Of a stretch of DNA of 64,000 nucleotides, positions 9,395 through 53,726 are shown one piece after another. The position numbers and the translations under genes are program-made. Where the stretch lies: positions 62,001-126,000 of the forward strand of contig JANQJK010000023.1 of the NCBI GenBank assembly GCA_028281665.1. Reading direction: 5' to 3'. Position 1 is the stretch's first letter; the number at the start of each line of letters is the position of its first letter. The notes beneath the pieces are model-generated. The model saw only the letters and a program-made list of their open reading frames with translations, was not told where the DNA came from and ran no database searches. Source of the stretch: Hyphococcus sp. GTDB taxonomy: Bacteria > Pseudomonadota > Alphaproteobacteria > Caulobacterales > Parvularculaceae.

Positions 9395-9448
9395 GTGATC
9401 GCCAAGCATTCGTCACATCGCTTCTGTGTCGCCCCGATGATGGAATAG
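9395..9448 (+). pseudogene. dusA: 5' remnant of dusA left at the element's left junction
   Basis: Translation VIAKHSSHRFCVAPMME* parallels MLEKQSHRFCVAPLMDGTDRHCRYF of the intact dusA at 52743. Confidence 0.8.
9428..9444 (+). repeat. putative attL core (gtcgccccgatgatgga)
   Basis: 14 of 17 positions match 52773-52789 (gtggcccctctgatgga), same place in dusA reading frame. Confidence 0.65.
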
Positions 9449-16141: not shown

Positions 16142-18844
16142 CTACCAACTCTTGGTCAGTTGGATTGAGACAAATCTTTCTAGAGGTGACGCGTTAGTGG
16201 GGTCATACGCTGCGATTAGAAATGTAGGATCGCCTGGCGTGCTCGGCGGAGGGGAATCAAATAGGTTTTGAACAGAAACTTGAAGGGAAAGATTCCTGAA
16301 AAAATCAGTCCGGGAGCTCGATCCTAGTTGATACCGAAAATTTAAATCCACGGTAAACCAATCATCAATTCGATCCGATCCTGGAGTCAGATCAACCCGA
16401 TAATCGTTCACGTAGTTAAAAAATAGATTTGCCGCGAGCACTTCGCTTGCATATCCGACAGAGCCTCGTGCGCGAAAATCAACGGGATTGAAAAGTGTGC
16501 TAACTTCATCGACGACAGGTGTTCCGACCGAAGCTTGCTCCGTAAACTTAATTATATAAGTGCCATTCAGCCCTGCACTAAGCGTACCGGAACCGATTTC
16601 TCGGCCGTAATGTACGCCTACATCAATCCCCTGTGATTGCGTCTCGCTAATGTTTGTCAGAACATTAAGCCGACTGATTATACTAATCGTTGCAGGGTCT
16701 ACACCAAATAAATTGGATACCGGCAAATCTAAGTTTGCGAGAGCTTCTTCTATTTCAGCAGTACTTGGGTTAAAGACAATTATCCCTGCTGGGAACAGCT
16801 CAGGGGAATTGAACGCCAAATTCCAAGCGTCTAAAGCGCTTCGTCCTTGTGGAACCGGAGTCTGGTTGAGCCGCCCCTTGAAATTTATGTCGTAAAAATT
16901 CGCTGTTAGTCGGACATTATTTTTGCTGAAAGTCTGATCTATCTCAACGCCGGCGGTGAATGCTCGCGAAGTTTCCGGATCTAATGATGGATCAGTACCC
17001 GAAAGAGACAAAACTGTCGTATCAGCAATCGAGGGATCGCCTGGTGTAAATCCAAAGAAGGAGTTGATTAATGCTGTGGGCAGCAGACTCCCGGTATTGA
17101 ATGAGTTTCCGATGCGCCCAAGCGCTGGCGGCTTGAACGAGGTACTGTATGTCCCTCGCAACTTTACGCCATCTATTGGTTCCCATAAGAGGCCTACTTT
17201 TGGATTCGTTGTAACGCCAAAGTCGCTGAAGTCGGAATGGCGAACTGATGCGTTTATATCAAGCCGATTGATACCACGCACGCCATTGTCGGGGCTAATG
17301 ATAGGAATGTAGATCTCGCCAAAAGCCGCGATGACATCACGATCGATAATTTCGGAGTCGTCCGTAAGTTCTTCAAAACGTAAGTGTCCTCCTACTGCGA
17401 TGCTTACGTCATTCCCGTTAACTGAAAGTATTCGCCCCGAGCTTATCAAGTCAGCAGCCCAGATATTGGAGTCCACCCCAAAGGCAGCGTCACCGAAAGT
17501 GGGGTCGATGGTCTGTATATCATTTGCAATGTTGCTGTAGACGGTAGAAAAGCGAACATCCCAATTTTCTTCAATATCCCAAGTGAGGCCGCCACCAATA
17601 CTGAACCCTTCAGAACTAGCGTTTTGTTGGGTAAGCCGACCGTCACCACGCGTTGTGTCCAAGACAGTTTCGCGACGAGAAAAAAGTAGATCTAAATCGA
17701 GCGAAACGTTGCGTGTTATATCTTGGCTGCCGGCAACAACAACGGAGTTCCGCTCTTGACTAGGAAGTAGATCGAAAGGCAGCATTGCATTGCTCGCAAA
17801 ATCTCGATCCTCCGCCCCAAGATCCGTTTGATTAAGATATTCATATGATGCGACTGCATTTCCAGATTTCCAGGTCAAACCACCCGTTACACTACCGCGA
17901 AACTCTTCGCGGTCTCCGGTGGTCACCGTTCCGTATCTGGTTGAGGCCTCGAGACCTTCGTAGTCATCCCGAAGCACAAAGTTGACCACACCCGCAACCG
18001 CATCCGCGCCGTAGATGGAAGAGGCGCCATCCGAGAGAATTTCAACGCGCTCAATCGCCGAGACCGGAATCATTGAAACATCGACGAATCCGCCGTTATT
18101 TGAAGTGGGAGCAATTCGACGACCATTAAGAAGTGTCAGTGTGCTGCCAGCTCCTAAACCGCGAAGGTTTACACTTGAGCCGAACGTAGAATTGCCCCGC
18201 GAGGAACTGTCGTCGGCGAGACCAAAAGGAATATCCGGGTTGGCGCCGCCCCCAAAGTTTTCTGGAAGAAGCTGCAAAAAGTCATCAATAGTGCCGACGC
18301 CGGAATTCAGAATGTCATTTCGATCAAAAACCCGAGTTGGTGAGCTATCAGGCGCAATGCCGCGGATATTAGTACCAGTAACAATGATCGTATCTCGCTC
18401 TTGTTCATTGTCTTCCGTCGACTCATTTTCTTGAACTAGAGTCACGGAATCGTTTGCTTGATCGACCTGAGCCATTCGAAGAAGGCGCGCTTCGTTCGAT
18501 CGCTCACCTAGGGATGCACTCGCCAACGTGATTGTGTAGGCCCCGTTTGGTGCGTCGGCAGCTTTGAGACCCGACCCGGTGAGGATCTTATCGAGAGCGT
18601 CCTCGGGCTCCATGGAGCCTTTCACGGCTGGCGACGTTTTGCCATCAACGAGATCACCGGACACCATCACGATAACGCCGGCTTGCTCGTTGAATTCCAA
18701 AAGCGCGGATGAAAGCGGTTGGGCTTCAATGTCGAATTCCATCGCCTGCGCCTGGGCCGCGGCGATTGAAATCGCCATCGCCGTGATTGACGCCGCCCCG
18801 GTCAGCGCAAATTTCGAGATTATTGATTTTGTCATTGTCGGCAT
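16142..18844 (-). CDS. TonB-dependent receptor with N-terminal STN signalling domain
   Basis: STN-like segment (FDIEAQPLSSALLEFNEQAGVIVMVSG), plug (RDTIIVTGTNIRG...LLNGRRIAPTS...GASSIYGADAVAGVVNFVLR), C-terminal beta-barrel ending in aromatic W. Confidence 0.93.
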   Translation of the reverse strand: MPTMTKSIISKFALTGAASITAMAISIAAAQAQAMEFDIEAQPLSSALLEFNEQAGVIVMVSGDLVDGKTSPAVKGSMEPEDALDKILTGSGLKAADAPNGAYTITLASASLGERSNEARLLRMAQVDQANDSVTLVQENESTEDNEQERDTIIVTGTNIRGIAPDSSPTRVFDRNDILNSGVGTIDDFLQLLPENFGGGANPDIPFGLADDSSSRGNSTFGSSVNLRGLGAGSTLTLLNGRRIAPTSNNGGFVDVSMIPVSAIERVEILSDGASSIYGADAVAGVVNFVLRDDYEGLEASTRYGTVTTGDREEFRGSVTGGLTWKSGNAVASYEYLNQTDLGAEDRDFASNAMLPFDLLPSQERNSVVVAGSQDITRNVSLDLDLLFSRRETVLDTTRGDGRLTQQNASSEGFSIGGGLTWDIEENWDVRFSTVYSNIANDIQTIDPTFGDAAFGVDSNIWAADLISSGRILSVNGNDVSIAVGGHLRFEELTDDSEIIDRDVIAAFGEIYIPIISPDNGVRGINRLDINASVRHSDFSDFGVTTNPKVGLLWEPIDGVKLRGTYSTSFKPPALGRIGNSFNTGSLLPTALINSFFGFTPGDPSIADTTVLSLSGTDPSLDPETSRAFTAGVEIDQTFSKNNVRLTANFYDINFKGRLNQTPVPQGRSALDAWNLAFNSPELFPAGIIVFNPSTAEIEEALANLDLPVSNLFGVDPATISIISRLNVLTNISETQSQGIDVGVHYGREIGSGTLSAGLNGTYIIKFTEQASVGTPVVDEVSTLFNPVDFRARGSVGYASEVLAANLFFNYVNDYRVDLTPGSDRIDDWFTVDLNFRYQLGSSSRTDFFRNLSLQVSVQNLFDSPPPSTPGDPTFLIAAYDPTNASPLERFVSIQLTKSW

Positions 18845-19032
18845 CCTCCCGCCCGCTATTTCGTCTCAATGCGGACCAAGGCCGTCGGCGCGGCCGATCC
18901 CCTCCCTGGTCTCGGCTCTGTGACGCATGACGTGGCGACGCGTTCCAAAAAAGTTCACAAAAGCTTTACGTTCGCGCTTGCGGGACGGCCAGATCGTAGC
19001 AAAATGCATTGAAAACGCGCGTCTTTGCGGTG

Positions 19033-20079
19033 TCAGGACTTACGTCGCAGAACGATCGGGCCAGCGCCGCTGTCGTCAACTTCGATCGGTTGCACCACTT
19101 CCAGAACTTCCAGCATTTGCGGGATTTCCGAAGTGCGGAAGGCGGTCGTGAGCCTTAAGTCCTCAAGGTCGGACGAGGCGATGCGCAACGGACGTTCGGC
19201 GTACCGATTGACGTCGTCGACAATGACTTTCAGGCGTACATTGTCATAGGCGAGGCGGCCGTCGCGCCAGGCGCCTGGCTCGATATTCTCCAGCGGGGAG
19301 GCGGTCGGGACCGATTGCCGGCGTTCGACAGACACTTGCAATCCGGCGGTGAGCACTTGTTTTTGTGCTTGGCTGTCCGCCGTCGAAGTAAGAGCCTCGT
19401 CTTTCATCACTTCGACGACGCCTTCAAGCACCGCCACATGAACCTGACCAGCGCTGCGCTTGACGTCGAACTTCGTGCCGACGACGCGCACGACGGTATC
19501 GTCAGCTGCGACGTAGAAAGGGCGGCTCGCGTCTTTCGCAACGTCAAAGAAGGCCTCGCCGGTAAGGAGCGTGACGCGTCGGGCGTCGCCTGAAAACGCC
19601 GCAGCGATTTCCGATTTGGCGCCAAGGGTGACAATGGTCCCGTCTTCCAGCGTGATCTCTCGGATTTCTGCGATCGCCGTCGCGAAATCAGGCGTCAACG
19701 CAATCTGGTCGGGCGCGCGCAGGTTCGTCGCATTGATCGCCACCAATGCGAACATGGCGATGGTCGCTGCTGCGCCGCCGAAGGCATAAGCCGGTCTGGC
19801 GAAGGCCGCTTGCAGCCAAGCCATAGCGCGCTCGAAGATCGATGGTTCCGCCGCCGTCAGATCAGCTTTCCGCGCCACATAATCGAAATCGCGCCAGATC
19901 TGTTCGGCTTCCCGGAAGGCCGTGCGATGGGCCGTTGATTGCGCGATCCAGGCCTCAAACCCTTCTCGGGTCTCGGCGCTGAGATCGCCCGCGTGGAGGC
20001 GCACCAGCCATTCGCGCGCTTGGCCCGCGACATCCTCGCTGGTTTCGCTTCCCTTCGACATATGCCGTTCAGTGATCAT
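19033..20079 (-). CDS. FecR-family anti-sigma/transmembrane regulator
   Basis: FEAWIAQSTAHRTAFREAEQIW N-terminal and LTGEAFFDVAKDASRPFYVAADDTVVRVVGTKFDVK FecR motifs. Confidence 0.93.
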   Translation of the reverse strand: MITERHMSKGSETSEDVAGQAREWLVRLHAGDLSAETREGFEAWIAQSTAHRTAFREAEQIWRDFDYVARKADLTAAEPSIFERAMAWLQAAFARPAYAFGGAAATIAMFALVAINATNLRAPDQIALTPDFATAIAEIREITLEDGTIVTLGAKSEIAAAFSGDARRVTLLTGEAFFDVAKDASRPFYVAADDTVVRVVGTKFDVKRSAGQVHVAVLEGVVEVMKDEALTSTADSQAQKQVLTAGLQVSVERRQSVPTASPLENIEPGAWRDGRLAYDNVRLKVIVDDVNRYAERPLRIASSDLEDLRLTTAFRTSEIPQMLEVLEVVQPIEVDDSGAGPIVLRRKS

Positions 20080-20681
20080 CCGCCGCGTTGCTTCTTTCGT
20101 CCGCGCTCGACCGCCTCACCGAGCGCTTCGATCGCCATGGTCATCTGTCGGCTGATATCGCCAGCCGACCAGCCCGTTTCGCGGGAAATCTCCGCATAAC
20201 TTTTGCCTTCAACCCGGTTCATGATCAGAACACGCTGTTGCTTTCGCGGCAGCTTTTGCGCCGCAGCGATCATCAATTCGAACCGGTCTTTCTCCACTAA
20301 GACGCGCTCAGGCGTGATCTCTTCCAATTTTGTTTCGCTGTCGTCAGCGAGAACCGCATCGATATAGGCCGCAGCGTTTTTCGCGCGCCGCTTGTGATCA
20401 AGCACGATGTTGCGCGCCGCCTTATAAACAAAAGCGCGCGGATTTTCGATGTTTTCGGGTGAGGGGAGGCTTGCATATTTGACAAAGGCCGCCTGGACCA
20501 CGTCTTCAGGGTCAGGCGGGCCGGGTCCAAACAGCTTGGCGATCCGCCCGCACATTTCTCTGAAATAGGCGCGATAAAGATCGTCCAGCAGACTTGTCGC
20601 AACGGTTGTATTCGCCGATGCGTTCGCGCCGCCGGATTTTGCGGTCGATTGCTTGACCGTCAGTTCACTCACGAAATCCAA
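20076..20681 (-). CDS. ECF sigma factor, FecI-type
   Basis: Sigma70 region 2 (DPEDVVQAAFVKYA...NPRAFVYKAARNIVLDHKRR) and region 4 (YAEISRETGWSAGDISRQM); overlaps fecR. Confidence 0.9.
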   Translation of the reverse strand: MDFVSELTVKQSTAKSGGANASANTTVATSLLDDLYRAYFREMCGRIAKLFGPGPPDPEDVVQAAFVKYASLPSPENIENPRAFVYKAARNIVLDHKRRAKNAAAYIDAVLADDSETKLEEITPERVLVEKDRFELMIAAAQKLPRKQQRVLIMNRVEGKSYAEISRETGWSAGDISRQMTMAIEALGEAVERGRKKQRGG

Positions 20682-21744: not shown

Positions 21745-22350
21745 TCATTGTCTTTCTACGGATATATCCCCAGTAGTCTTTCGTGCTGTGTAATACTGTC
21801 CGGTAAGTTTGTCGGGATCGCCGTCGTAATCGAGCTCAAGAAACGCAACGCCTTCATGAGGCGCGCTTCTATGTCGGAACTTGGCCTGCGGTTCGTTCGC
21901 GTAACTATACCAGAGCCGGAAGCGGCGGGTTTCATAAAACGGTTCAAGAAATGTACGCGTCGAGTGCGATGTCGACTCGCCAGTCGTCATGGCGACATGC
22001 GTGGCGAAGAGGGTTTGACGAATCTTGAACTCGACCGGAATTGCCGGCGCGGTTGTCCCCGTATCAGGATTGATCCAAGTCGATTGGAGCTCCCCGCGCC
22101 ATACGCCGTTCAAGTCGGGAAAGGTCCGCAATCCGATCGCTGGGTGCGCTGACCAGACTCGTCGCCATGTGTGATCAAGAACGATGACGCCGGCAGCCGA
22201 CAGCACGCCGACCGATAGCATTATTGTTTTCAATGCGCCCGGACTATCGCCGGACACAAGCGACCATAGCGCGTCAATACTCCATGCAACAGCGACGCCC
22301 GCGGCGACCACCAGCGTCAAGCGCAATTTTTGCGGAAGCAGCGCCCACAT
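21745..22350 (-). CDS. cap15: Cap15-like CBASS effector (two-TM + beta-barrel cyclic-nucleotide sensor) candidate
   Basis: Two N-terminal hydrophobic segments then LNGVWRGELQSTW...PVEFKIRQTLFATHVAMTTGES...GVAFLELDYDGDPDKLTGQYYTARKTTGDI; overlaps the CD-NTase stop. Confidence 0.75.
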   Translation of the reverse strand: MWALLPQKLRLTLVVAAGVAVAWSIDALWSLVSGDSPGALKTIMLSVGVLSAAGVIVLDHTWRRVWSAHPAIGLRTFPDLNGVWRGELQSTWINPDTGTTAPAIPVEFKIRQTLFATHVAMTTGESTSHSTRTFLEPFYETRRFRLWYSYANEPQAKFRHRSAPHEGVAFLELDYDGDPDKLTGQYYTARKTTGDISVERQ

Positions 22351-23417
22351 TAGGCGTCGCCAAGATGGAAAAGCGCCGCATCAAGAAAACGCGCCGCCGT
22401 TTCAAGCCGCCAGGGCTGGCTCGCTGCGAAGAGCGGTTTGATAGCGTTAATTTCGGTCAGCCCTGCGGCTGCCAGCGGCGCATTGACAAGTTCGCGCATG
22501 CGCCTCGTGACTCGACGGACACGGTCATAGGCGTCATCGTTCTCGACGAGAAAATACTGATCCTCAACTGCGTAGACGAGACATTCGATGAAGAAGGAAG
22601 GGATATCGGCTGTAAATATACCGCGTGCCGCCATGTCGGCGCGTAGGCGTTTGACGATCCGCACGACTTTTTTGAAGCGCCGTGCAGTTCGCAGATTTTT
22701 GGTTTTACCGTTCGCGTGATGCTGTTCGGGAAAGTTGAACGTCCAACGTCCGTCGCCGCCGAGAATCGCGACGCCTTCCGAAACGTCGTAACGCCGAAAA
22801 TAATCATTCCACCGGACCTTATTATATTGCACCATGGGAACAACATCGACTTCCGCGCGGCTGCCGGTAATGCCCTTGACTCGGATCGCCTTATTGCCGG
22901 CGTCAATCTTTAGATATCCAAACGCATCGCCTAAAGTCGTCGTCAGGGCTGAACGCATGACGCCAAAAACCTGCGGGTAAGTCTTTCCGCTCGATTGATA
23001 CCCGAGATATTCGCGGGCGGCCGACTGCACGACATTCGGATCGTATTCGACATAGACTGCAGGATAGACGACGCGCAGATCGATATCGGCGTCGATGCGC
23101 ACATTGGTGTTGTTGTGATAAGACCCTTGCGGGCTTACCTGTACGTTTTCGTCTGTAAGCCAATCATTTCGCGCGATGGCGACCCGAACATTTCGTTCGG
23201 CGCGCTCAATCGTGCCTTCCTCGCTGACGCTGGCTGGTTTTTCCCAATGGGCGAAACGCTTGTTCCATTCACTGCGCCGGCGATAGGCTTCGCTGAAGAT
23301 CCCGAGGCCATTGTTGGGCGGCGGGATAAGATTGTCGAAAATGCCCCGGCCCGCGGATGGCGCGCCGCCAAGGAGAATATCGGCCGCCGACAGCGGCTTT
23401 TTGGAGTAATCGGTCAT
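22350..23417 (-). CDS. CD-NTase (cGAS/DncV-like nucleotidyltransferase) of a CBASS system
   Basis: GSYHNNTNVRIDADIDLRVVYP and VKGITGSRAEVDVVPMVQY active-site motifs; start taken as ATG at 23417 (MTDYSKKPLSAADILLGG). Confidence 0.85.
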   Translation of the reverse strand: MTDYSKKPLSAADILLGGAPSAGRGIFDNLIPPPNNGLGIFSEAYRRRSEWNKRFAHWEKPASVSEEGTIERAERNVRVAIARNDWLTDENVQVSPQGSYHNNTNVRIDADIDLRVVYPAVYVEYDPNVVQSAAREYLGYQSSGKTYPQVFGVMRSALTTTLGDAFGYLKIDAGNKAIRVKGITGSRAEVDVVPMVQYNKVRWNDYFRRYDVSEGVAILGGDGRWTFNFPEQHHANGKTKNLRTARRFKKVVRIVKRLRADMAARGIFTADIPSFFIECLVYAVEDQYFLVENDDAYDRVRRVTRRMRELVNAPLAAAGLTEINAIKPLFAASQPWRLETAARFLDAALFHLGDA

Positions 23418-23546
23418 AATATCTCTTTCGCTTGCGGTATTCAGGCCAAATAGGTATTCGGGGGCCGTGCTACAATATCTAGGGGCCGGACCCATTTTCC
23501 CACACAATCCTGCTCTTGAATGTTGCCATTTGTCGTTATATATGTC

Positions 23547-23556
23547 GCCATATGGC
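23547..23556. promoter_or_regulatory. palindrome GCCATATGGC upstream of the toxin-antitoxin operon (operator candidate)
   Basis: Perfect 10-bp palindrome just before the AGGAG ribosome-binding site and ATG 23568; an extra TGCCAT half at 23524-23529. Confidence 0.4.
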
Positions 23557-23567
23557 AGGAGATAAAT

Positions 23568-23984
23568 ATGAGCACGCCAGTAGTCATTGAACGGCCCGCG
23601 TCTGACCTTAGCGCCCGCGATCCGGACCGGGTCGCCAGCGTGGCGATCAAGGCCTTTGCGCGCATTGTGGAGGCTTGGGAATTGAAGAACGAGACCGCCG
23701 CGGCGTTGATCGGAGCGAGCGCGCGCACTTGGGCGCGCATGAAAAAAGAGGATTGGACCGGGCGCTTGTCGAAAGATCAGTTGCTGCGGGTGAGCGCGCT
23801 TTCGGGACTCTATAAAGCCCTGCATCTTTATTTTTCAGACACGCTCGCCGACCGCTGGGTCGGACTTGATAATAAAGGCCCGCTTTTCGGCGGACGCTCG
23901 CCCCTCGAAATGATGGAAGAGGGCGGGCTTCCGGCGATGATGGAGACCCGCGATTATGTGGACGCGCTGAGAGGCGGAGCGTGA
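23568..23984 (+). CDS. Xre/MbcA/ParS-type antitoxin (DUF2384-like)
   Basis: AAALIGASARTWARMKKEDWTGRLSKDQLLRVSALSGLYKALHLYFSDTLADRWVGLDNKGPLFGGRSPLEMMEEGGLPAMMETRDYVDALRGG matches Xre/DUF2384 layout; overlaps RES toxin. Confidence 0.9.
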   Translation: MSTPVVIERPASDLSARDPDRVASVAIKAFARIVEAWELKNETAAALIGASARTWARMKKEDWTGRLSKDQLLRVSALSGLYKALHLYFSDTLADRWVGLDNKGPLFGGRSPLEMMEEGGLPAMMETRDYVDALRGGA

Positions 23985-24676
23985 CGGCGCCGGAACTGGC
24001 ACCGGTTTCCCTAATCGAGAAATCCGACACGGTGCGGCTCATCCCGACGGCCTATTACAAGCCGCCGGTGTTAAAGGCGCTGATTGAAGATGACGACGAC
24101 TTGGAAATCCTCGAAGAGATCGAAGGGTTAACTAATCGACGTCTGCGAGCGCAGGCGCGAGGGCTGTCAGGCATGGACGCGCGTGAGTTCGTTTTCGGCG
24201 TGTGGGGTGAAACGCACGTCAATGCGGCGTTCGCTTATACGCGCGCCGAAGGCAATCGTTTTAACGACGCAAGCCGCGGCGCTTGGTATTGCGCATTTGA
24301 CGACTTAACAGCGATTGAGGAAGTCGGATTTCATAAATCGCGGGAACTCGCACGGATCGATTTTTTCGAAGAAAAATGCGTCTATCAAGCGCTGCTCGCT
24401 GGTTTCATTGGCGAGTTTCATGACGTTCGCAACGTTGATCCGGTGCCGGACTTTCTCGCCAAAGACACAGAAGTCGCTTACCCCGCGGGTCAAGCCTTCG
24501 CCGCGGAATTGCGCAGCGCCGGCGCGCGGGGACTTGTCTATCCGTCTGCGCGGCGCGAAGGCGGAACTTGTCTCGTCGCATTTCATCCCGGTCTTGTACA
24601 GAATGTGCGGCCAGGGGCCCGGTGGAAACTCACTTGGGACGGAACGCCCGAATATGCGGTGACGACGGATCCGTGA
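23981..24676 (+). CDS. RES-domain toxin
   Basis: RAEGNRFNDASRGAWYCAFDDLTAIEEVGFHKSRELA RES signature; GTG start overlapping antitoxin stop. Confidence 0.92.
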   Translation: MTAPELAPVSLIEKSDTVRLIPTAYYKPPVLKALIEDDDDLEILEEIEGLTNRRLRAQARGLSGMDAREFVFGVWGETHVNAAFAYTRAEGNRFNDASRGAWYCAFDDLTAIEEVGFHKSRELARIDFFEEKCVYQALLAGFIGEFHDVRNVDPVPDFLAKDTEVAYPAGQAFAAELRSAGARGLVYPSARREGGTCLVAFHPGLVQNVRPGARWKLTWDGTPEYAVTTDP

Positions 24677-24722
24677 ACCGGCTCAACAAAAGCGGGATCT
24701 GCCGCATGAATTGAATAATGTG

Positions 24723-27700
24723 ATGTCGAAAATTGAAGATGAAAATTTGGCGCGCGAATTGCGCGAAAAGATCGCAGCGATAGCGGCGACTGGCGCCAAT
24801 GGCTTTGAGGGACTTATCCGCGACGCCTATTATGAAGCAACCGGTGTCCGTCTGCGCCTTCTCAAGTCCGGGCAGCAACAAGGCGCGGACGCGATAGCCG
24901 TTGAAGACAAAAAATCAATATATGCAGCGATTGAGGCGAAACGATACGGTCAAGGCTCCGAATTGTCGCTCGATCATCTCCGTTCAAAACTTGAAAGCGC
25001 GATTGCGCGCCGCGGAAATCCTGTTGAGCTTTGGATATTGGCGGCGAGTCGAGAAGTCAGCGGTGACGACGCAGAAGATTTGATGTCCCTCGGCGCACAA
25101 CGCGGCGTCGCTGTTTTAATCTTGGATTGGGGTGCGGAGGGGGACTTATTGGCGCCGCTTCCCCTCCTTCTTGCGTTAGCGCCGAAAGTTGTTTCCAGCC
25201 GGTTTGATTCTGGTTTCGCGTCGCGCCTTGCGTCGGTGCGGCGCTATCCGGACTTTGACGATCGCGCCGCCGCCCTGAAGCAACGCCTGACGGGCGGCGA
25301 TCTCGGTCTCGTCTATACGGCCGATGTGCTTCATACGGCCTTGGAGAAGGCAATGATGTCTCGGTCCGCTGCGCTCCAGGCGTTTGGGTCGAGCGCAAAT
25401 CTTAAGGACAATAGCAGAATACGGATAAGCCGTCCGTCCATTAGCAAGCGCATCGACGCATGGTGGGAGCACAATGACGCGCCTGTCGGGGTTTGCTTGG
25501 GCGAGGCAGGATACGGAAAGAGCTGGTCGGCTCTCGACTGGATACTCAGCAAACAAGAAAGTGATCAGCGTTCCTTCGTCGCCTGGCTCGCGGCGCGAGA
25601 CCTTAACGGGAAAAGCGTAGCGGATGCAGTGGCCCAAAGCTTGGTCCAATGGCTTCCGGAATTGCGCCGCGATAAAGTATTTTGGCGCCAACGTGTTGAG
25701 CGGTGGCGCGCCGCAGCGAAGAGCGCGGTAGAGACGCTCGACGCCACGGCAGTTCCAGCGCTGACATTGGTCTTGGATGGAGTGAATGAGGGAGACCGAC
25801 AACAAGAGGTCCTGAATGTCCTGCTTAATGCGGTTTCTGACGACTGGAAGGGCGTCGTCAAAATCCTCATCACCGAACGCACGCCGCACTGGCGAGAGGT
25901 ATTCAACGAAGGAAAGGGGTTATCGGCGCACCCTTTCTCCGTCGATGTGGGTCCGTTTAGCGCACATGAGCTAGAAACGTTGCTGTCCGCCCATGAACGC
26001 CGCCTTTCGGATTTTCCGCAATCGGTTCGCGACCTCCTCTGCGTGCCGCGATGGTTCGAGGTCGCGTCCACCCTTTTCGGCGAAAAGATCGACTGGGCGG
26101 CGATGACCCCTGACGGTTTGATGTTTCATTATTGGGCTGTTCGGCTTCGCGACCGCGGCGCCATTTCAGATGTAAGCGCAGACCGATTTCGCAATTTTAT
26201 TGTTAGCCTCGGCCGGACGTTAAAAGCGTCGGACGGCGGTGCAGTATACGGAAGAGATAGTCTTTTGGCGCGTCTTTCCGGGTCGAGCGGTCGCGCGCAG
26301 GAGGAATTCCAGTCAGCGATCGACGATATCGTCGACGGGCATTGGTTTGAAGAGGATCAGTTGGACGCCTTAAGGTTGACGTCTCTTGCGTCACTATTCG
26401 CCATCGGATTGGCGCAACTCGATGATTTGAAACGCTTTGAGACCGACGAAGAAATAGACGAAGCGCTGAGCGCTTTTCTGGGTCCTATCGAAGAGCTTGA
26501 CGAAGGCGTCTCGATTCTAAAGTCGACCGCCGTCCTCGCCTTTTGTGATCACGCCTGCCCGGTTTCTGTTCGCCAAGCGCTCATTCGTCGCTGGAGTCTC
26601 GCCAGAAATTTCAATTCATCAGACTACGAACTCTTTTGGCGGATGGGAATAGAAGCGCCGCAGGCCCATCTTAGGGCAGCAAAAGACGTTTGGATCGCGC
26701 AAACCGGGTCAAGCTTTGTTGACCACCTCTGGGTCGGCGCACTGGCGTCGCTCGCCCAAGAAGGCGGCCAGCGCGACGCTGTCGTAACTTTTCTGACCGA
26801 TGAAATGCGTGTTTATTGGCACGATTCCCATGAAGGGCTCTTCATCGGTTACCATCCCTCGGAAGAGGACGTGGCGGCGCGCACCGTTGAAACGAAGCAA
26901 AAGCTCGCCGAAATCGAGAGGATTGCGGAAGGGGCGGGGCAAGGTCTTCAGTTCAGAGATAATGGCGCTGGGGCCAGTTGGCTGCATTACCGGCTATTCG
27001 CGGTCGCTTCTCACTTGCCGCGCGCAGCTCTAGGACCATTCTTTCGCGCATGGGCTGTATCAAGGGCGGTTATTGGCGGCAGTCACGATTTTGATCTGTT
27101 ATGCTGGTTGCTTCGGGAGAACAGGGTTGATCCGCTGGAAACCGATGAAATGGTCATCGAAACCGCCCGTTTCGTGCGGGCGCTTGGGCATGACCTATTT
27201 GAGGCCCCGTCAGAAAACCTGCTGACTGCCCTTGCTACGCCGACGGCCAACGCGGTCCTTGCCGAATGGGGCACGGAACCCAAAGTGGGACGGTGGTACG
27301 GCCACGAAAATGCAGTGACGGTGATTGACAATGAAATCCGCCGACGACGCGGTGATGATTGCGTTGATCCGAAGATATTCGACATCGCCGCCTTGGCGTT
27401 TGACCCGTCCTTGGCATTGGACCGCGATCTAGAACCACTATTGGATGAAGCGCCTGAAGACTTGGCTCCCGATGCGCTCGGGAACGGTCGTTTTACGACA
27501 GCAGCCGATATAGAGCGAGAACGATCGGGGCCGGCGTGGGCGCGATGGCGTTCCGCATGGTTTGCCGATCTGCATCGAACATATGTGAATTCCGCGCCGG
27601 ACCGAACCGGAGAGGCTCAACGCGGCGTCTCTTTCGATATTCACGAGCTTGTTGTGCTTTTGTCTGAGAATACCAAAGATCGATTGGCGAACATGTTGCC

Positions 27701-29171
27701 CGCCATGGCCCCAAACAAAAGCGATAATTGGTTCGTACTCTATCGTTTTTGGGCCGCGGCGCTTTTTGATCGTCCGGCGCAGGAGCAAATTGAAATTTGG
27801 CGTAAGATCCCGCCAATTGCCGCCGTGCCTTATAGCCTCGACGGCGTGCTGCGTACCCCTTCTATCCGCCTTGCAGAGCCGATCTGGTTGACAATATTGA
27901 ATTCTGACGAAACGGATGAACAAGTATTTTGGCTCTGTTATATGTTGATGAGCAGAGCGCCACTGTGCGGACGATGGAAGGAAACGATCGACAATTGCCT
28001 TCAGTCTGACTGCGCGACGGTTCGCGAGCTTGTGCTTCTTATTGCGCTCGAACACGACGAAGGATCAATTGCGGCGGGCGAGCGATTATATGCTCGGGGA
28101 TGGACGGCAAGTGCTGAGCAATCAGACCGCGAACGCCGTCTCGGATCTGATGCTCTTGTATCCCTCGCTCAAAAATATCCCTTAGAGGATTTGCTGGCGC
28201 GGATTGACAAGGCTCATGGACCAACATTGTGGCGCGCTGCTGGATTCCCGGATGAACATTGCGGGCTTATATTCGATTTGTTGAACGATGCGTTGCGCGA
28301 TCCATTGGCGCCGTTTCGCGGCCGATCTAAACCCGAGGCGTTCGCGGAGGGATTAAGGACTCTTTACAACCGCGACCCGAAAATGGTCCGGCGATTCGGC
28401 GAGCAACTTTTTGAAGCGCCGCCGGAATATGTCTACCGAGCGTTGCCCTGGCCGCACAGAGCGATGCTTCGGCTTTTTCTGGAAACGGAGCCGGACTTTG
28501 CTGTTGGGCTAATTGATCGTTTGCCTTCCGCAACAAAGAATGCGTTTTCATACGACCTTCGACAATTGAGTCTTTCCGCTCCAGATCATGCCATAGCCGA
28601 CCGACTCCGCCGCGAGGCGTTGAAAACTCTGGTCACTGATTGGGACATTGAAGAGTTTGCCGCTGACATTGTCGCCCATGGCCGGGAGGCCTGGGCTGCA
28701 AAAATAATCCGGGAAGATGTATCATCATTCGCGCCGGCTGGAACATGCGCGCGGGCGATGATGCTCGCAGGTTTTCTGGCCTCCTTGCCGGCCGTTGCCG
28801 AAATCTGGGAGAACGAGTTGGCGCAAGCGCCGGCAGAGGGCTGGCTAACCGTCGTTTACAAGGAAGCCGCTTGGCGCGCGCGTCGCGCACGGGCTAACGC
28901 CTTTTGGTGGCAAAAAGCGACGAATGCTGAATCAGACGAGGCGTTTTTCTGCGCCATGTTTCTGTTCGACGAAACCCTTGACTGGCCGCAATGGCGTCTC
29001 GCCGGTCGCGTTCTTCGGGCAAGCAGAGACGACGTAACGCCGCGATATTTGTCAGCTATTGATCTGGCTTGGGATGACTTTAAGCAACGGGTGGATCGGC
29101 GGAAAACAAAGCGCGATCGTCGCCTGTACGCCGAAAACACTGGTCCAAAATCAATGATGCCGTGGGCCTAA
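24723..29171 (+). CDS. Large (~1482 aa) putative defence protein: N-terminal PD-(D/E)xK (Mrr-like) nuclease + STAND/NACHT-like NTPase + long C-terminal sensor-like region (Avs-like)
   Basis: GADAIAVEDKKSIYAAIEAKRYGQG nuclease motif; GVCLGEAGYGKSWSALDWIL Walker A; ALTLVLDGVNEGDRQQ Walker B; VKILITERTPHW sensor-like; flanked by CBASS and TA. Confidence 0.75.
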   Translation: MSKIEDENLARELREKIAAIAATGANGFEGLIRDAYYEATGVRLRLLKSGQQQGADAIAVEDKKSIYAAIEAKRYGQGSELSLDHLRSKLESAIARRGNPVELWILAASREVSGDDAEDLMSLGAQRGVAVLILDWGAEGDLLAPLPLLLALAPKVVSSRFDSGFASRLASVRRYPDFDDRAAALKQRLTGGDLGLVYTADVLHTALEKAMMSRSAALQAFGSSANLKDNSRIRISRPSISKRIDAWWEHNDAPVGVCLGEAGYGKSWSALDWILSKQESDQRSFVAWLAARDLNGKSVADAVAQSLVQWLPELRRDKVFWRQRVERWRAAAKSAVETLDATAVPALTLVLDGVNEGDRQQEVLNVLLNAVSDDWKGVVKILITERTPHWREVFNEGKGLSAHPFSVDVGPFSAHELETLLSAHERRLSDFPQSVRDLLCVPRWFEVASTLFGEKIDWAAMTPDGLMFHYWAVRLRDRGAISDVSADRFRNFIVSLGRTLKASDGGAVYGRDSLLARLSGSSGRAQEEFQSAIDDIVDGHWFEEDQLDALRLTSLASLFAIGLAQLDDLKRFETDEEIDEALSAFLGPIEELDEGVSILKSTAVLAFCDHACPVSVRQALIRRWSLARNFNSSDYELFWRMGIEAPQAHLRAAKDVWIAQTGSSFVDHLWVGALASLAQEGGQRDAVVTFLTDEMRVYWHDSHEGLFIGYHPSEEDVAARTVETKQKLAEIERIAEGAGQGLQFRDNGAGASWLHYRLFAVASHLPRAALGPFFRAWAVSRAVIGGSHDFDLLCWLLRENRVDPLETDEMVIETARFVRALGHDLFEAPSENLLTALATPTANAVLAEWGTEPKVGRWYGHENAVTVIDNEIRRRRGDDCVDPKIFDIAALAFDPSLALDRDLEPLLDEAPEDLAPDALGNGRFTTAADIERERSGPAWARWRSAWFADLHRTYVNSAPDRTGEAQRGVSFDIHELVVLLSENTKDRLANMLPAMAPNKSDNWFVLYRFWAAALFDRPAQEQIEIWRKIPPIAAVPYSLDGVLRTPSIRLAEPIWLTILNSDETDEQVFWLCYMLMSRAPLCGRWKETIDNCLQSDCATVRELVLLIALEHDEGSIAAGERLYARGWTASAEQSDRERRLGSDALVSLAQKYPLEDLLARIDKAHGPTLWRAAGFPDEHCGLIFDLLNDALRDPLAPFRGRSKPEAFAEGLRTLYNRDPKMVRRFGEQLFEAPPEYVYRALPWPHRAMLRLFLETEPDFAVGLIDRLPSATKNAFSYDLRQLSLSAPDHAIADRLRREALKTLVTDWDIEEFAADIVAHGREAWAAKIIREDVSSFAPAGTCARAMMLAGFLASLPAVAEIWENELAQAPAEGWLTVVYKEAAWRARRARANAFWWQKATNAESDEAFFCAMFLFDETLDWPQWRLAGRVLRASRDDVTPRYLSAIDLAWDDFKQRVDRRKTKRDRRLYAENTGPKSMMPWA

Positions 29172-29267: not shown

Positions 29268-29293
29268 CGCCGCCCTACGGGCGGCGGCTTTTT
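29268..29293 (+). terminator. Rho-independent terminator candidate downstream of the large NTPase gene
   Basis: CGCCGCCC-TAC-GGGCGGCG stem followed by GCTTTTT. Confidence 0.65.
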
Positions 29294-29503: not shown

Positions 29504-30151
29504 ATGACGATCAGTACACAAACAACCAGCGACAGCGCCGGCGGAGAGGTCGGAGGCGCGCGCGGCGAGGGCGCGAACGCAGGCGCAGACGCAACCCTAA
29601 GCGCAGGCGCGCACGCCAGCGCAAGCGACGACATGAGAGACGGGCCGCGCGTCTACGCGGCCTGCCTTGCCGCTTATAATAACGGCATACTGCATGGGTG
29701 CTGGATCGACGCGGCGCAAGAACCCGAAGACATTTGGCGGGAAATTTCCGCGATGCTTAGCGCTTCGCCGATCCCAAACGCGGAGGAGCACGCCTTTCAT
29801 GATTTCGAAGGCTTTGGCAAAGCGGACATTCCCGAATATGCAGGCGTTGACACAATCGCACGGCTGGCGGCCTTCATCGTTGAGCGCGGCGAGGATTTGG
29901 GCGGCGGCGTCCTTGAACATTTTGGCGGCGACATCGACGACGCCGAAGCGGCGTTCGAGGACTATGCGGGCGAATGGAAAAGCCTCGCCGAATTCGCGCA
30001 GGACGTCACCGAAGATAGCGGCGTTGAGATTCCCAAGCCCCTCGAATACTACATCGACTGGCAGGCCATGGGCCGCGACATGGAAATGTCAGGCGATATC
30101 TTCACGGTAGAGACGGGATTTGAAGAAATTTACGTCTTCTGGTCACGCTAA
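29504..30151 (+). CDS. ardA: antirestriction protein ArdA
   Basis: RVYAACLAAYNNGILHGCWIDA...EEHAFHDFEGFG...YAGEWKSLAEFAQDVTE...YYIDWQAMGRDMEMSGDIFTVE. Confidence 0.95.
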   Translation: MTISTQTTSDSAGGEVGGARGEGANAGADATLSAGAHASASDDMRDGPRVYAACLAAYNNGILHGCWIDAAQEPEDIWREISAMLSASPIPNAEEHAFHDFEGFGKADIPEYAGVDTIARLAAFIVERGEDLGGGVLEHFGGDIDDAEAAFEDYAGEWKSLAEFAQDVTEDSGVEIPKPLEYYIDWQAMGRDMEMSGDIFTVETGFEEIYVFWSR

Positions 30152-34322: not shown

Positions 34323-34417
34323 ATGTCTGCACATCTTTTTCGCCGCGCTGCGGTTTTTGATCGTAGCGCTGTGGTTTGCGCTTAAGTAGTTGGCATCATG
34401 AGGAATTTGATAGCGCT

Positions 34418-36337
34418 ATGACGGGCGCAGGCGAAAATGACTTCAAGCCAAAGCTCGGGCGTATCCGCGCCCGCGGCGGCAAGCGTTCAAAGGCGTATCT
34501 GAACCGCATCGTCGCGGCCATGAAACGCGCGGGGCCTGGCCCGTCGCGAGGCGCCGGGCGCTATCGACGCAGTATGCCAGGGCGGACGTTCGCGCGGCGC
34601 GTCATCGTCAAGGCGCGAATAATCAAGATGGCGGGCGTCGGCGTCGCCGCGCAGCGCCTGCATCTCAGATACATTCAGCGCGACGCTGTAGGGCCGGACG
34701 GTGAGAAGGGAAAACTGTTCGATCAAACGAGCGAACTAGTGGGCGGCAAGGCGTTTCTGAAACGAGGCGCCGCAGACCGTCATCAATTTCGCTTGATCGT
34801 GTCGCCGGAAGACGGCGTTGAGATGCGCGATCTCAAGGCTTTCACGCGTGATCTGATGACGGCGATGGAAAAGGATCTCGACACGCGCCTCGATTGGGTC
34901 GCAGCGGCACACTACGACACAGGCCGCCCCCATGTGCATATCGTCATCGGCGGCAAGCGTGATGACAGCCGCGATTTGGTCATCCCCCGGAAATATATCT
35001 CCAACGGGATGCGCGAACGGGCGTCAGAACTCGTTTCCATCGAGTTAGGACCGCAGACGGAAATGGAAGTGCGATTGAAGCTCGCGGCGGAGGCGGGCGC
35101 TGAACGGTTGACGCGCCTTGACCGCCAGCTCGCCGATATGGGCGTCGACGACGAACTCGATCTGACGCCGGATCATCGAGGACAAGCCTGGCGGCGGCGT
35201 CTGCATCTGGCGCGGCTTAAAAAACTGGAGCGCTTGGGGCTTGCCGAGAAAACCGGCGCCATGCGTTGGCGACTAGCGCCGCAATGGCAAGCGACCTTGA
35301 AACGCATGGGCGAGCGCGGTGATATCATCAAGACGTTAAACGCCAAGCTTGCAGAACGCGGCGTCTCAGCGCCCGTCGGCGCCGACGCGATTTACGACCC
35401 GGCCGATCCGCGTTCAAAACCGTTCGAAGGCCGCGTTCTGGCTGCCGGCGTCGCCGGCGAAAACCACGATCGCGTCTACGGGGTCATCGAGCGCGTCGAC
35501 GGCCGGGTTTTTCATGTCGATCTTGGAAGCGCTGGCGTCGCGCCGGAAGTCGCGCGGGGCGCCATCGCGCGTGTCGCGCCAATGGACGTGAAACCGAAAC
35601 CGTCCGACCGCACGATTGCGAAGATCGCCGCCAGTAATAGCTGTCGGTATTCGGCGGCGCTCCATCTCGATCATGACACGCGCGCTCGGCCGGAGTTTAT
35701 TGCTGCGCATGTGCGGCGGCTTGAAGCTTTGTGCCGCGCCGGCCATGCGGAGCGTTTGTCCGATGGAAGCTGGTCTGTTCCGGACGACTATCTTGTCCGC
35801 GCCGAAAATTATGAGCGCCAACGCGCAAGGTCGGCGCCCGTGAACATGCAAATCCTGTCGCGCCTTTCGCTCAGCGCACAGGAGCGCGCTATCGGCGTGA
35901 CCTGGCTTGACCGCCAATTGATGAGCGACGGCGAAAGGCAGAAGACCTTCGGCGCTGCATTTCGAGATAGTCTCGCTGCGCGGCGTCTCTTTCTCATCGA
36001 ACAGGGGATGATGCGTGCAGACGACAAGACGCTCGATCCATCGGCGCTCAAAGACCTCGAACGCCGCGATCTCGCGGATGCCGGCGAAGCGCTCTCGAAA
36101 TCGCTCGGCAAACCTTACAAGCCGGCGACAAGCGACGGCAAAATCGAAGGCACATATCGCGCGCCCATCGACCGCCCGAGCGGGCGGTTCGCCGTCATCG
36201 AACGGACGAAAGATTTCACGCTGGTTCCTTGGCGAGACGTCCTTGAACGCAATCGCGGCAAGACCGTCGCCGGCATGGTCCGCGGACGCTCGATGTCCTG
36301 GACGCTGACGCGATCGAAAGGGCTCGTCAGAGACTAG
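34418..36337 (+). CDS. relaxase (VirD2/DUF3363-type)
   Basis: HQFRLIVSPEDGVEMRDLKAFTRDLMTAMEKDLDTRLDWVAAAHYDTGRPHVHIVIGG relaxase HxH motif region; long DUF3363-like C-terminus. Confidence 0.92.
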   Translation: MTGAGENDFKPKLGRIRARGGKRSKAYLNRIVAAMKRAGPGPSRGAGRYRRSMPGRTFARRVIVKARIIKMAGVGVAAQRLHLRYIQRDAVGPDGEKGKLFDQTSELVGGKAFLKRGAADRHQFRLIVSPEDGVEMRDLKAFTRDLMTAMEKDLDTRLDWVAAAHYDTGRPHVHIVIGGKRDDSRDLVIPRKYISNGMRERASELVSIELGPQTEMEVRLKLAAEAGAERLTRLDRQLADMGVDDELDLTPDHRGQAWRRRLHLARLKKLERLGLAEKTGAMRWRLAPQWQATLKRMGERGDIIKTLNAKLAERGVSAPVGADAIYDPADPRSKPFEGRVLAAGVAGENHDRVYGVIERVDGRVFHVDLGSAGVAPEVARGAIARVAPMDVKPKPSDRTIAKIAASNSCRYSAALHLDHDTRARPEFIAAHVRRLEALCRAGHAERLSDGSWSVPDDYLVRAENYERQRARSAPVNMQILSRLSLSAQERAIGVTWLDRQLMSDGERQKTFGAAFRDSLAARRLFLIEQGMMRADDKTLDPSALKDLERRDLADAGEALSKSLGKPYKPATSDGKIEGTYRAPIDRPSGRFAVIERTKDFTLVPWRDVLERNRGKTVAGMVRGRSMSWTLTRSKGLVRD

Positions 36338-37165: not shown

Positions 37166-37705
37166 ATGACCAAAAGTTCGGACATTAAGGCGAGAGAGAC
37201 CGCGGCAAACGCACAGCTGCAAGACTTTGCGCGTCAATATGGGACGGCGCTCAAACTCTTTTTCCGCCGGCGCGGCGCCGCGCCGGATCTCTGCGACGAC
37301 CTCGTTCAGGACGTGTTCGCGCGGCTCGCCGCCCGCGCCGGCGGCGAAGAAATCGAGAAATCGGAAGCCTATTTGATGGTGACCGCTTCCAATGTCTGGA
37401 AGGATTTTCTTCGGAAAAAACAAACCCATAGCGAGGACGCCCATTGCGCCTATGAAGATTCCGCCCATTCGCCGGAAGGTTTTTCGCCCGAGCGCGTCTT
37501 TCTCGGTAAGGAAGCCGTGCAGCGGCTGGTCAGCGTCTTGGAGGCGTTGCCGGCGCGGACGCGGAATATTTATCTTCTGTGCCGAGCGCATGGATTTAAG
37601 CGCGCGGAAGTCGCCGACCGGTTGGGCGTTTCGCTCACCACGGTCGACCGGCATCTGATGACGGCGGCCGAGAAAATCGGCGCGGAACTTGGCGATCTTA
37701 AATGA
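37166..37705 (+). CDS. ECF sigma factor, FecI-type
   Basis: CDDLVQDVFARLAARAGG...EAYLMVTASNVWKDFLRKK; region 4 FKRAEVADRLGVSLTTVDRHLMTAAEKIG. Confidence 0.92.
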   Translation: MTKSSDIKARETAANAQLQDFARQYGTALKLFFRRRGAAPDLCDDLVQDVFARLAARAGGEEIEKSEAYLMVTASNVWKDFLRKKQTHSEDAHCAYEDSAHSPEGFSPERVFLGKEAVQRLVSVLEALPARTRNIYLLCRAHGFKRAEVADRLGVSLTTVDRHLMTAAEKIGAELGDLK

Positions 37706-38769: not shown

Positions 38770-38905
38770 CACAAGTCTCGCCGTTGCGACGGTTTTTTGA
38801 AATCTTTGTGAAAGCATTTTTGAAGCGTCCCGTCTTTCTTTCTGAGGGCGCGAAAATCCGCGCCCCGATAGAACACGGCGTCTCTGACGTGCGGGAGGGA
38901 AAACT

Positions 38906-51491: not shown

Positions 51492-52616
51492 TCATCCAGC
51501 GTGCTTTGACCACGGCGATGTCGTCGTAATCAGGATCCCCGATGGCGGAGGTGTTGGCGGCAAGTCGTTAGGAGCGTATTTTTTCGTAAGATGCTCCGGA
51601 CGAAGGTGCGTATATCGATTGAGCATTTTCCAGTCGCGATGGCCGGTTACAAGGGCGACCTCTTGAATTTTCAGACCAGCCTCAAAGAGCCGGCTTGTCG
51701 CTTCGTGCCGCAAATCATGGAAACGCAATCCTTCAATCCCGAGCGCTCGGCAGGCGCGCCGGAATGCGGCGCCAACGGATCGCGGATTGTATGGGAAAAT
51801 ACGATCGCCGTTAGGAACCGCCGCAATCTGCTCCTGGATCAATTCCCATGCGTCATACCCGTTGATATCGAGCAGCGGCACTTTCTGATGATTGCCTTCT
51901 TTCTTGCGGGGGTCTTTGCGATTCCGCACCAATTGTGTGCGCGTCCGAGCGCAAACGTCTTTGCGCGCGATCATGCAGATTTCTTCTTGGCGCATGGCTG
52001 TCGCTACAGCGAATTTGATGATCCTCCCGACAGGAATAGTCTGTCGCGGATTGCTGTCGACATAGGCGATCAGCGCGTCGAGTTCATCCTGCGTCGGCCG
52101 GCGATCCCGTTCCTGACTGTGGCCGACAAGGCCGAGCCGGTTCAACGCCTTGCGCGCCAATTGCACCGGTTCAATACTGACATTGAGGCCGTGAACGGCG
52201 GCGGCGTGTGTTAAAATGGTTCCGATGTAAGATAGCTCCGAACCAAGCGTTGACGGTGAGATCCCGTCCTTGGCGCGTTTCTTGCCGAATTCAATCAAGC
52301 GTTCGCGGGTCAGCTGATCGATTCGGAGATGGCCGATACGCTGTCGGAGAGCCTTCAAGGCGCCTCTTTTAGACCGTCTTATTCTCTTGCCGACCTCGCG
52401 TAGATCGTCGAGGTGGATATCTAACAGTTCGCCGAATGTTGTCGCATCGTGAGCGTTCGACAACGCCACGTCCTCGCCGCGGTCGATCCGGCGTTCGGTC
52501 TCAAGCGCCCATCGTTCGGCTTCGGCCTTGCGTCGAAAAGTGGCCGACGCATACTGGCCTTTACGTCGGACTTGGACACGCCAACTATCGGATTTTGTTT
52601 TTATGAAAGTTGCCAT
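51492..52616 (-). CDS. tyrosine site-specific recombinase/integrase
   Basis: ATAMRQEEICMI, LRFHDLRHEATSRLFEAGLKIQEVALVTGHRDWKMLNRYTHLRPEHL catalytic R-H-R-H/Y region; adjacent to dusA. Confidence 0.95.
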   Translation of the reverse strand: MATFIKTKSDSWRVQVRRKGQYASATFRRKAEAERWALETERRIDRGEDVALSNAHDATTFGELLDIHLDDLREVGKRIRRSKRGALKALRQRIGHLRIDQLTRERLIEFGKKRAKDGISPSTLGSELSYIGTILTHAAAVHGLNVSIEPVQLARKALNRLGLVGHSQERDRRPTQDELDALIAYVDSNPRQTIPVGRIIKFAVATAMRQEEICMIARKDVCARTRTQLVRNRKDPRKKEGNHQKVPLLDINGYDAWELIQEQIAAVPNGDRIFPYNPRSVGAAFRRACRALGIEGLRFHDLRHEATSRLFEAGLKIQEVALVTGHRDWKMLNRYTHLRPEHLTKKYAPNDLPPTPPPSGILITTTSPWSKHAG

Positions 52617-52742
52617 GTTAGTATTCCTCAATGGTGTGCGCTATGCGTGCAGGGCCAGCGTGAAACTCCGAGAATTGAGGTGAAATTATGAGCGTATACG
52701 GAGTAAATCGGCTTCCCTCAATGTCTTGAATATACTCGAAAA

Positions 52743-53726
52743 ATGCTTGAAAAACAATCACATAGGTTTTGCGTGGCCCCTCTGATGGACGGCACGGATC
52801 GTCACTGCCGGTACTTCCACCGGCTGATGACGAAGCATGCCCGGCTCTATACCGAAATGATTACCGCAGAAGCGATTGTGCATGGAGACCGCGATCATCT
52901 GCTGGCGTTTGACGACAGCGAACACCCGGTCGCCTTGCAGGTCGGCGGCAGCGATCCTGCGAAGCTCGCCGAAGCCGCAAGCATTGGCGCCGATTATGGT
53001 TATGACGAAATCAATCTGAACGTCGGCTGTCCGTCGGATCGCGTGCAGTCCGGGGCTTTTGGCGCCTGTCTGATGAAAGAGCCGATGCTGGTCGCAGACT
53101 GTGTGGCGGCGATGAGCGATGCCGCAGACATACCGGTCACAGTCAAATGCCGCATTGGCGTTGACGATCAGGATCCGGAAACTGCGCTGCCCGCGCTCGT
53201 TGACGCCTGCACCGACGCCGATTGTCGGATTTTTATCGTGCATGCCCGCAAAGCGTGGCTCGACGGGCTCAGCCCGAAGGAAAACCGCACCATACCGCCG
53301 CTCGACTATGATCTCGTCCGGCGGCTCAAAGACGACCGCCCGGAGCTGACGATCGTGCTTAATGGTGGCGTCGAAACGCTGGCGGAAGCCGCGAGGCGCC
53401 TGCATGATGTTGACGGTGTCATGCTCGGCCGCGCGGCCTATGGCGCGCCGTTTCTTTTGTCGGATGTGGATGAGATGATCTTTGGTTGTGAGTCTGGCGG
53501 GGTGACGAGGGAGATGGTGATCGGCAAGATGTCCGCCTACTTGAAACAAGCGTTCGCGCTCGGCGTCCGTCCGCATTCCGTCACCAGACACATGCTGGGC
53601 CTTTATCACGGGGCGCCGGGCGCACGGGCGTGGCGACGGTTTCTTTCCGAAAACGCTCCGTCAGCGCGCAGCGACATTCTCGATCGCGCTCTTGATGAAA
53701 TGCGCGCTGCGCGCGCGCCGGCATAG
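52743..53726 (+). CDS. dusA: tRNA-dihydrouridine(20/20a) synthase DusA
   Basis: HRFCVAPLMDGTDRHCRYFHRLMTKHARLYTEMITAEAI; EINLNVGCPSDRVQSGAFGACLM; HARKAWLDGLSPKENR. Confidence 0.96.
   Translation: MLEKQSHRFCVAPLMDGTDRHCRYFHRLMTKHARLYTEMITAEAIVHGDRDHLLAFDDSEHPVALQVGGSDPAKLAEAASIGADYGYDEINLNVGCPSDRVQSGAFGACLMKEPMLVADCVAAMSDAADIPVTVKCRIGVDDQDPETALPALVDACTDADCRIFIVHARKAWLDGLSPKENRTIPPLDYDLVRRLKDDRPELTIVLNGGVETLAEAARRLHDVDGVMLGRAAYGAPFLLSDVDEMIFGCESGGVTREMVIGKMSAYLKQAFALGVRPHSVTRHMLGLYHGAPGARAWRRFLSENAPSARSDILDRALDEMRAARAPA
52773..52789 (+). repeat. putative attR core (gtggcccctctgatgga)
   Basis: See attL; lies within dusA codons for VAPLMD. Confidence 0.65.

Follow-up and report, generated by a model that had tools for sequence, protein, structure and literature searches.

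A giant nuclease–STAND–solenoid protein on a dusA-integrated element of Hyphococcus sp. as a candidate single-protein immune sensor

Introduction

Here, we describe a giant gene in a 64,000-nucleotide stretch of DNA from Hyphococcus sp. (assembly GCA_028281665.1, contig JANQJK010000023.1, positions 62,001 to 126,000 of the forward strand; hereafter the window, in which all positions are counted from the first letter). From its sequence and predicted structure, the 1482-residue product is tripartite: an Mrr-like PD-(D/E)xK nuclease (residues 1-140), a NACHT-like STAND nucleoside triphosphatase (NTPase) with a winged helix (237-556) and a HEAT-like solenoid (557-1440). We consider it likely that this protein is an immune sensor complete in a single chain, in which the solenoid would sense infection, the NTPase would serve as a switch and the activated nuclease would cause the cell to die or stall. 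Several lines of evidence point in this direction. The tripartite order is accompanied by catalytic and NTPase residues that are invariant, or nearly so, over 23 homologues. The best structural match is Avs4, followed by NLRC4, Dark, EfAvs5 and Apaf-1. Defence genes stand beside the gene (a cyclic oligonucleotide-based antiphage signalling system, CBASS, and a RES/Xre pair) and in the islands of its relatives, several of which also have integrases nearby. The distribution is patchy, and divergence is concentrated at residues ~800-1400 in the clade of the window protein (clade A). Finally, bNACHT25 and bNACHT32, which share the N-terminal layout, need their nuclease for protection (PMC12169576).

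In bacteria, nuclease–STAND proteins are the counterparts of the NLR immune receptors of animals and plants, and their ligands are the chief question still to be answered. The PADLOC and NCBIfam models that were searched do not include the family described here, whose full-length members occur in four groups of bacteria.

Domain organization and conserved motifs

The earlier note, made from the letters of the window, had described a single open reading frame (ORF) of about 1482 codons, which was found as described from the ATG at 24723 (Table 1); an alternative TTG start at 24711 would give an ORF of 1486 residues (24711..29171, + strand). The motifs that the note gave for the nuclease, Walker A and Walker B were likewise confirmed in position. 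The nuclease site is G54-x-D56...E71-A-K73-x-Y75, and the NTPase motifs are GEAGYGKSW (Walker A, residues 260-268), LTLVLDGVNE (Walker B, 347-356, with D352-G-x-N355) and a PR motif at 442-443. Conservation was assessed in 23 aligned sequences from Alpha- and Gammaproteobacteria, Nitrospirota and Chloroflexota. Invariant residues are Q52, G54, D56, E71, Y75 and W104 in the nuclease part and R237, G260, G263, G265, K266, W268, D352, G353, N355, P442 and R443 in the NTPase part, while K73 is kept in 22 of the 23 sequences and is replaced by arginine in the remaining one. Three positions after the Walker B aspartate, asparagine is present in all 23, and the next residue is mostly glutamine or glutamate. 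With the key residues conserved in all or nearly all sequences, chance does not account for the motifs, and the conservation indicates that the nuclease triad and the NTPase motifs are under selection. D1306 and D1420 of the solenoid are also invariant.

AlphaFold2 models were built with 13 family sequences, as residues 1-700 and 540-1482. In the first (predicted local distance difference test score, pLDDT, 81), the nuclease core has the order H-E-E-E-H-E-H-E of helices and strands (H28-40, E44-46, E57-59, E68-73, H83-95, E103-108, H114-126 and E130-134). Next come a helix linker, a P-loop NTPase (255-410), a region that is helical and winged and includes a β-hairpin (542-552), and the start of the solenoid. 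In Pfam, the window protein scores above the cut-off for NPHP3_N (26.1 versus 24.8 bits) and below it for NACHT (21.9 versus 26.7 bits); at E<=0.01, NACHT was matched in ten of 21 members (best 4.8e-9) and Mrr_cat in two of the 21. Foldseek searches of the PDB with residues 1-700 ranked Avs4 in complex with a phage portal highest (8dgf, E 8.5e-7), ahead of NLRC4, a Pyrococcus STAND ATPase, Dark and EfAvs5, with Apaf-1 further down.

The solenoid and a candidate recognition region

That no repeat unit is visible in the C-terminal part, as the earlier note remarked, holds at the DNA level, where no tandem repeats were found in the giant gene, but not at the level of the modelled protein: AlphaFold2 gives a regular, continuous α-solenoid of ~50 helices over residues 540-1482 (mean pLDDT 80), and one homologue scores as HEAT_2 in Pfam. 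Since Foldseek matches this part to generic HEAT solenoids in the PDB (exportin 4, RRP12, UNC-45 and karyopherins), with low template-modelling (TM) scores, and places no Avs protein among its top 50 matches, we read the C-terminal part as a predicted HEAT-like sensor arm outside the assigned families.

Within clade A, pairwise identity stays level at ~60% up to about residue 800, falls abruptly to ~33% over ~800-1400 and rises again over the final ~80 residues. Between the Pseudomonas (L037) and Rhizobium (L004) members, successive blocks of 100 residues are 69, 63, 52, 59, 68, 65, 65 and 61% identical, then 32, 35, 30, 39, 49 and 38%, and finally 52%. The same drop appears in three further clade A pairs (L037/L035, L004/L035 and L037/L033) and is weak or absent in pairs from clades B and C. 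Mean identity within clade A is 46% in the nuclease, 39-43% in the NTPase and winged region, 40% over solenoid residues 557-856, 23-27% over 857-1440 and 31% in the tail. An artefact of the multiple alignment was ruled out, as pairwise global alignments show the same drop. These profiles suggest that the likely recognition region can be narrowed to residues ~800-1400, although ligand binding by it is itself inferred; the region lies inside the wider bounds of 450-1482 that the earlier note had proposed. The pattern is what would be expected of a ligand-matched module mounted on a constant effector and switch. Because the conserved effector and switch are sharply bounded from the diverging sensor, sensor swaps and screens for activators can be designed directly: should residues ~800-1400 set specificity, a swap between closely related members, for example those of Pseudomonas and Rhizobium, would be expected to swap the phage range.

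Beyond the solenoid, residues 1441-1482 (29043-29168) carry a K..LF/LY......PW motif that recurs in many members of two groups and is perhaps an autoinhibitory contact.

Family, distribution and phylogeny

Full-length relatives of 1438-1580 residues were recovered with tblastn and profile searches. The alphaproteobacterial members come from plasmids of Rhizobium, Ensifer, Azospirillum and Methylobacterium and from Sphingobium/Novosphingobium, Mesorhizobium, Maritimibacter and Hyphomicrobium, and the gammaproteobacterial members from Rahnella, Acerihabitans and Pseudomonas; others lie on plasmids of Candidatus Manganitrophus (Nitrospirota), in one Chloroflexi metagenome-assembled genome (MAG) and on one IMG/VR contig. 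Genome contigs searched with the single window protein yielded no relatives, and the clade alignment found 16 loci in them. Members are rare, being found in two of 398 genomes of the order with the protein query, while a profile search of 399 genomes from the phylum gave about four full-length members, its other matches covering the P-loop only.

The tree contains three well-supported groups. The window protein forms a long branch (1.95 changes per site), and its best identity is 27%. Its group combines Rhodospirillales, Sphingobium, Maritimibacter, Mesorhizobium, Rhizobium, Rahnella and Pseudomonas, so that hosts of different classes are mixed. The family is widespread and mobile, and integrative elements and plasmids spread it as their cargo.

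One match (G631/L009) was set aside as an unrelated hydrolase frame, and an origin in phages or viruses was rejected, as phage records gave no match and the single member on an IMG/VR contig has a tyrosine recombinase beside it. The matches in a 'Melainabacteria' MAG (L041) and a 'Chloroflexi' MAG (L042) have identical coordinates, identity and E-value, and one of these two host labels is probably a binning error.

Genomic context

The giant gene is cargo of a ~43-kb element integrated at dusA (window 9413-52789). This follows from an empty site in a congener (G001, locus L068), from the displaced start of dusA at the left end and from the integrase beside dusA. In the congener, the genes immediately after dusA are homologues of window genes 7655-9091, 6557-7555 and those beyond, whereas in the window these genes lie 43 kb from dusA. 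A 16-mer with one mismatch at 16255 had been considered as the left attachment site; the discovery of the dusA fragment at 9413 and of the empty site led to its being taken as a chance match. The order ArdA, cargo, DUF2285-like gene, TraF, relaxase and TraG is shared by related elements of the genus, and homologues of the relaxase, TraF and DUF2285-like genes also occur near the relative in L046.

Table 1. Coordinates of the giant gene, its predicted domains and surrounding features (window positions)
Feature	Position	Strand	Details and basis
Nuclease–STAND–solenoid gene	24723..29171	+	1482 residues from ATG; ORF call and 22 aligned full-length homologues
Mrr-like PD-(D/E)xK nuclease domain, residues 1-140 (D56, E71, K73)	24723..25142	+	Pfam, conservation, AlphaFold2 topology
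NACHT-like STAND NTPase with winged-helix-like region, residues 237-556	25431..26390	+	Pfam, Foldseek
HEAT-like α-solenoid, presumed sensor arm, residues 557-1440	26391..29042	+	AlphaFold2, Foldseek
Sharply diverging segment, candidate recognition surface, residues ~800-1400	27120..28922	+	Identity profiles in the window's clade
Strong terminator-like hairpin	29268..29286	+	8 G-C pairs then T run; 97 nt past the giant-gene stop codon
CBASS 2TM (Cap15-type) effector	21745..22350	-	PADLOC 2TM effector, E 3e-81
CBASS CD-NTase (oligonucleotide cyclase)	22350..23825	-	PADLOC Cyclase, E 2e-130
Xre/ParS-like antitoxin of RES/Xre pair, just upstream	23520..23984	+	NCBIfam NF049845, E 8.8e-7, below cut-off
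RES-domain toxin	23981..24676	+	Pfam RES, E 6.9e-31; ends 47 nt before the giant-gene ATG
ArdA antirestriction protein of the element	29504..30151	+	Pfam ArdA, E 1.8e-41
Relaxase of the element	34376..36337	+	Pfam DUF3363, E 2e-118, and Relaxase
Left attachment remnant, displaced dusA 5' end (encodes SHRFCVAPMM)	9413..9444	+	25/32 bases equal 52758-52789
Tyrosine integrase adjoining dusA	51492..52631	-	Pfam Phage_integrase, E 9e-23
Right attachment site, inside 5' end of dusA (52743-53726)	52758..52789	+	Match to left remnant; congener empty site

Around the giant gene lie ArdA, the RES/Xre pair and a CBASS operon encoded on the opposite strand. Since neither a terminator-like site nor a + strand promoter-like site was found between the RES gene and the giant gene, the RES/Xre pair and the giant gene may be co-transcribed.

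Independent defence genes recur strongly near other members. One relative has a type II-A retron beside it (L027; reverse transcriptase E 2e-130), together with a NACHT-motif protein whose N-terminus looks protease-like by eye. Proteins of ~1450 residues with HNH, NACHT and NCAB2 parts stand beside relatives in two distant hosts (L035:15521-19861 and L047:5362-9714; 29% identical), and PADLOC matches only their HNH N-terminus (candidate PDC-M68A and others). An annotated Hachiman HamA is found in L007, with homologues of HamA and the following gene in L029; an AAA ATPase and a RloB-domain gene lie near the Sphingobium relative, and an Avs2-like STAND near the one in L042. An nSTAND1 protein in L006 (2559-7766, 1735 residues) and its homologue in L044 (3292-8517, 1741 residues), which is 27% identical, each lie directly upstream of the relative. 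These two loci fall in different family groups, and the upstream giant STAND-like protein and the nuclease–STAND protein possibly form a two-protein system. Tyrosine integrases lie near several members.

The trbE-like gene of the window element (48741-49526) is shortened to 261 residues, compared with 812 in a related element (L069), and no long ORF resembling further trb genes follows it in the window gene list. Owing to these two features, the element may have lost the ability to conjugate without help. Translations read by eye also revealed, within the element, two gene sets (16142-20681 and 37702-44298) that combine anti-sigma FecR-like, TonB-receptor-like and peptidase-like genes and flank the defence cargo, one on each side.

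Discussion

The observed anatomy and conservation allow a course of events to be proposed, in which sensing, oligomerization, DNA cleavage and abortive infection are drawn from Avs4, bNACHT25 and bNACHT32. At rest, the nucleotide-bound NACHT-like NTPase would keep the protein inactive. Upon infection by a phage or another invader, the solenoid, chiefly at ~800-1400, would recognize a phage-made protein or a host protein disturbed by the infection; direct binding and indirect guarding both fit the present data and cannot be told apart. NTP binding would then lead to oligomerization, by which the N-terminal Mrr-like domains would meet and cut DNA with little sequence choice, and the infected cell would die or stop growing.

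Several points weigh against the immune-sensor reading. Protection against phage rests on inference, and the Mrr_cat score of the window protein (17.9 bits) lies below the cut-off of 21. In the usual NACHT Walker B, DGxDE, a small residue after the aspartate precedes an acidic pair; the family has DGxN[E/Q] instead, and hydrolysis could therefore be weak. The Foldseek TM-scores are low (0.27), as expected of multi-domain models, and the recurrence of defence neighbours is given without a background rate. More tentatively, these proteins may constitute a NACHT-like family of nuclease sensors that is separate and as yet unnamed, with an NTPase signature of its own (GxxGxGK[ST]W and DGxN) and a HEAT-like solenoid, in which the centre of the solenoid diversifies as a ligand-specific module while the effector, switch and C-terminal tail stay fixed, and some members of which pair with an adjacent giant STAND; we regard this as possible, though on balance doubtful.

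Mrr-type enzymes restrict modified DNA, and the Mrr-like nuclease, the antirestriction ArdA of the same element and a solenoid match to the DNA-binding condensin Ycg1 would all suit a DNA-sensing, restriction-like system. In such a system, the solenoid and NTPase would recognize invading DNA (modified bases, a plasmid or conjugating DNA), and the nuclease would cut it without cell death, protecting the element or host from competing DNA. We judge this unlikely: the giant protein has no recognizable DNA-reading domain, condensin is only one of many HEAT solenoids matched, and the NTPase and architecture fit STAND sensors rather than McrB or the motors of type I and III systems. Less probable again is a two-component guard, in which the STAND nuclease would monitor the upstream toxin–antitoxin pair or be stabilized in inheritance by it. 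The close spacing of the RES/Xre pair, with no + strand promoter-like site and no terminator-like site intervening, agrees with such coupling, as does a VapBC pair that ends 2 nt before the giant gene in Sphingobium/Novosphingobium. However, most other members lack a toxin–antitoxin gene at that place, and RES/Xre and VapBC are unrelated, which makes addiction cargo more likely than mechanism. STAND NTPases include regulators, but a MalT-like transcriptional or signalling regulator with a degenerate nuclease domain is a very remote prospect here, given the invariant D56 and E71 with a nearly invariant K73, the lack of an output DNA-binding domain in Pfam and the variable, mobile, defence-island distribution.

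Comparison with known systems

The immune-sensor reading that we prefer relates the protein to several known systems. The earlier note had offered an Avs-like or new STAND defence gene; the likeness holds for the fold and the proposed function, of which Avs4 is the nearest example, and it does not extend to the Avs1-Avs5 sequence models. PADLOC and NCBIfam gave no family for the window protein at E<=0.1, nor PADLOC at E<=10, the range in which the Avs1-Avs5 check suggested by the note came out empty. The PADLOC models of Avs4 (PDLC02169), Avs5 and Avs3b had no match in the whole genome (G000), and among eight relatives scanned with PADLOC one matched Avs2, at 0.029 only. By sequence, the PDB returned nothing for the window protein, and family profiles gave sub-significant P-loop matches only. 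Membership of Avs1-Avs5 was rejected because no PADLOC Avs model matches the window protein, and an uncatalogued nuclease–STAND family appears to be the better reading. No description of the family was found in the open papers searched, subscription papers and supplements being outside that search.

Avs4 recognizes a phage protein and cleaves phage and host DNA, and the cells die (PMC12931631). The window protein resembles it as a single chain of ~1500 residues with a nuclease, a STAND NTPase and a helical C-terminal sensor, and differs from it in an NTPase that scores as NACHT and NPHP3_N and in a sensor modelled as a HEAT-like solenoid. Similarity to Avs2, a nuclease–STAND phage sensor (PDB 9o4e), is weak, confined to the NTPase in profile comparison and not significant (E 0.13), and is absent outside it.

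bNACHT25 and bNACHT32, assigned to bNACHT clade 6 by Kibby (2023) as cited in PMC12169576, have a PD-(D/E)XK DNase at the N-terminus and a NACHT module in the centre, a layout that the window protein resembles. In these systems infection triggers nuclease-dependent DNA degradation, and a phage coat protein activates them without direct binding, with the host DnaJ being needed (PMC12169576). They carry an NCH1 C-terminal module, and the family differs from them in its DGxN Walker B. No Pfam NACHT C-terminal module was found in 21 members, in a Pfam set unconfirmed to include the NCH1 model, while the same set, as a positive control, detected NCAB2 in neighbours. Those neighbours, the HNH–NACHT–NCAB2 proteins, share the size of ~1450 residues, the order of nuclease, NACHT and long C-terminus and the very same islands, and are set apart from the window family by an HNH rather than a PD-(D/E)xK effector and by another C-terminal module.

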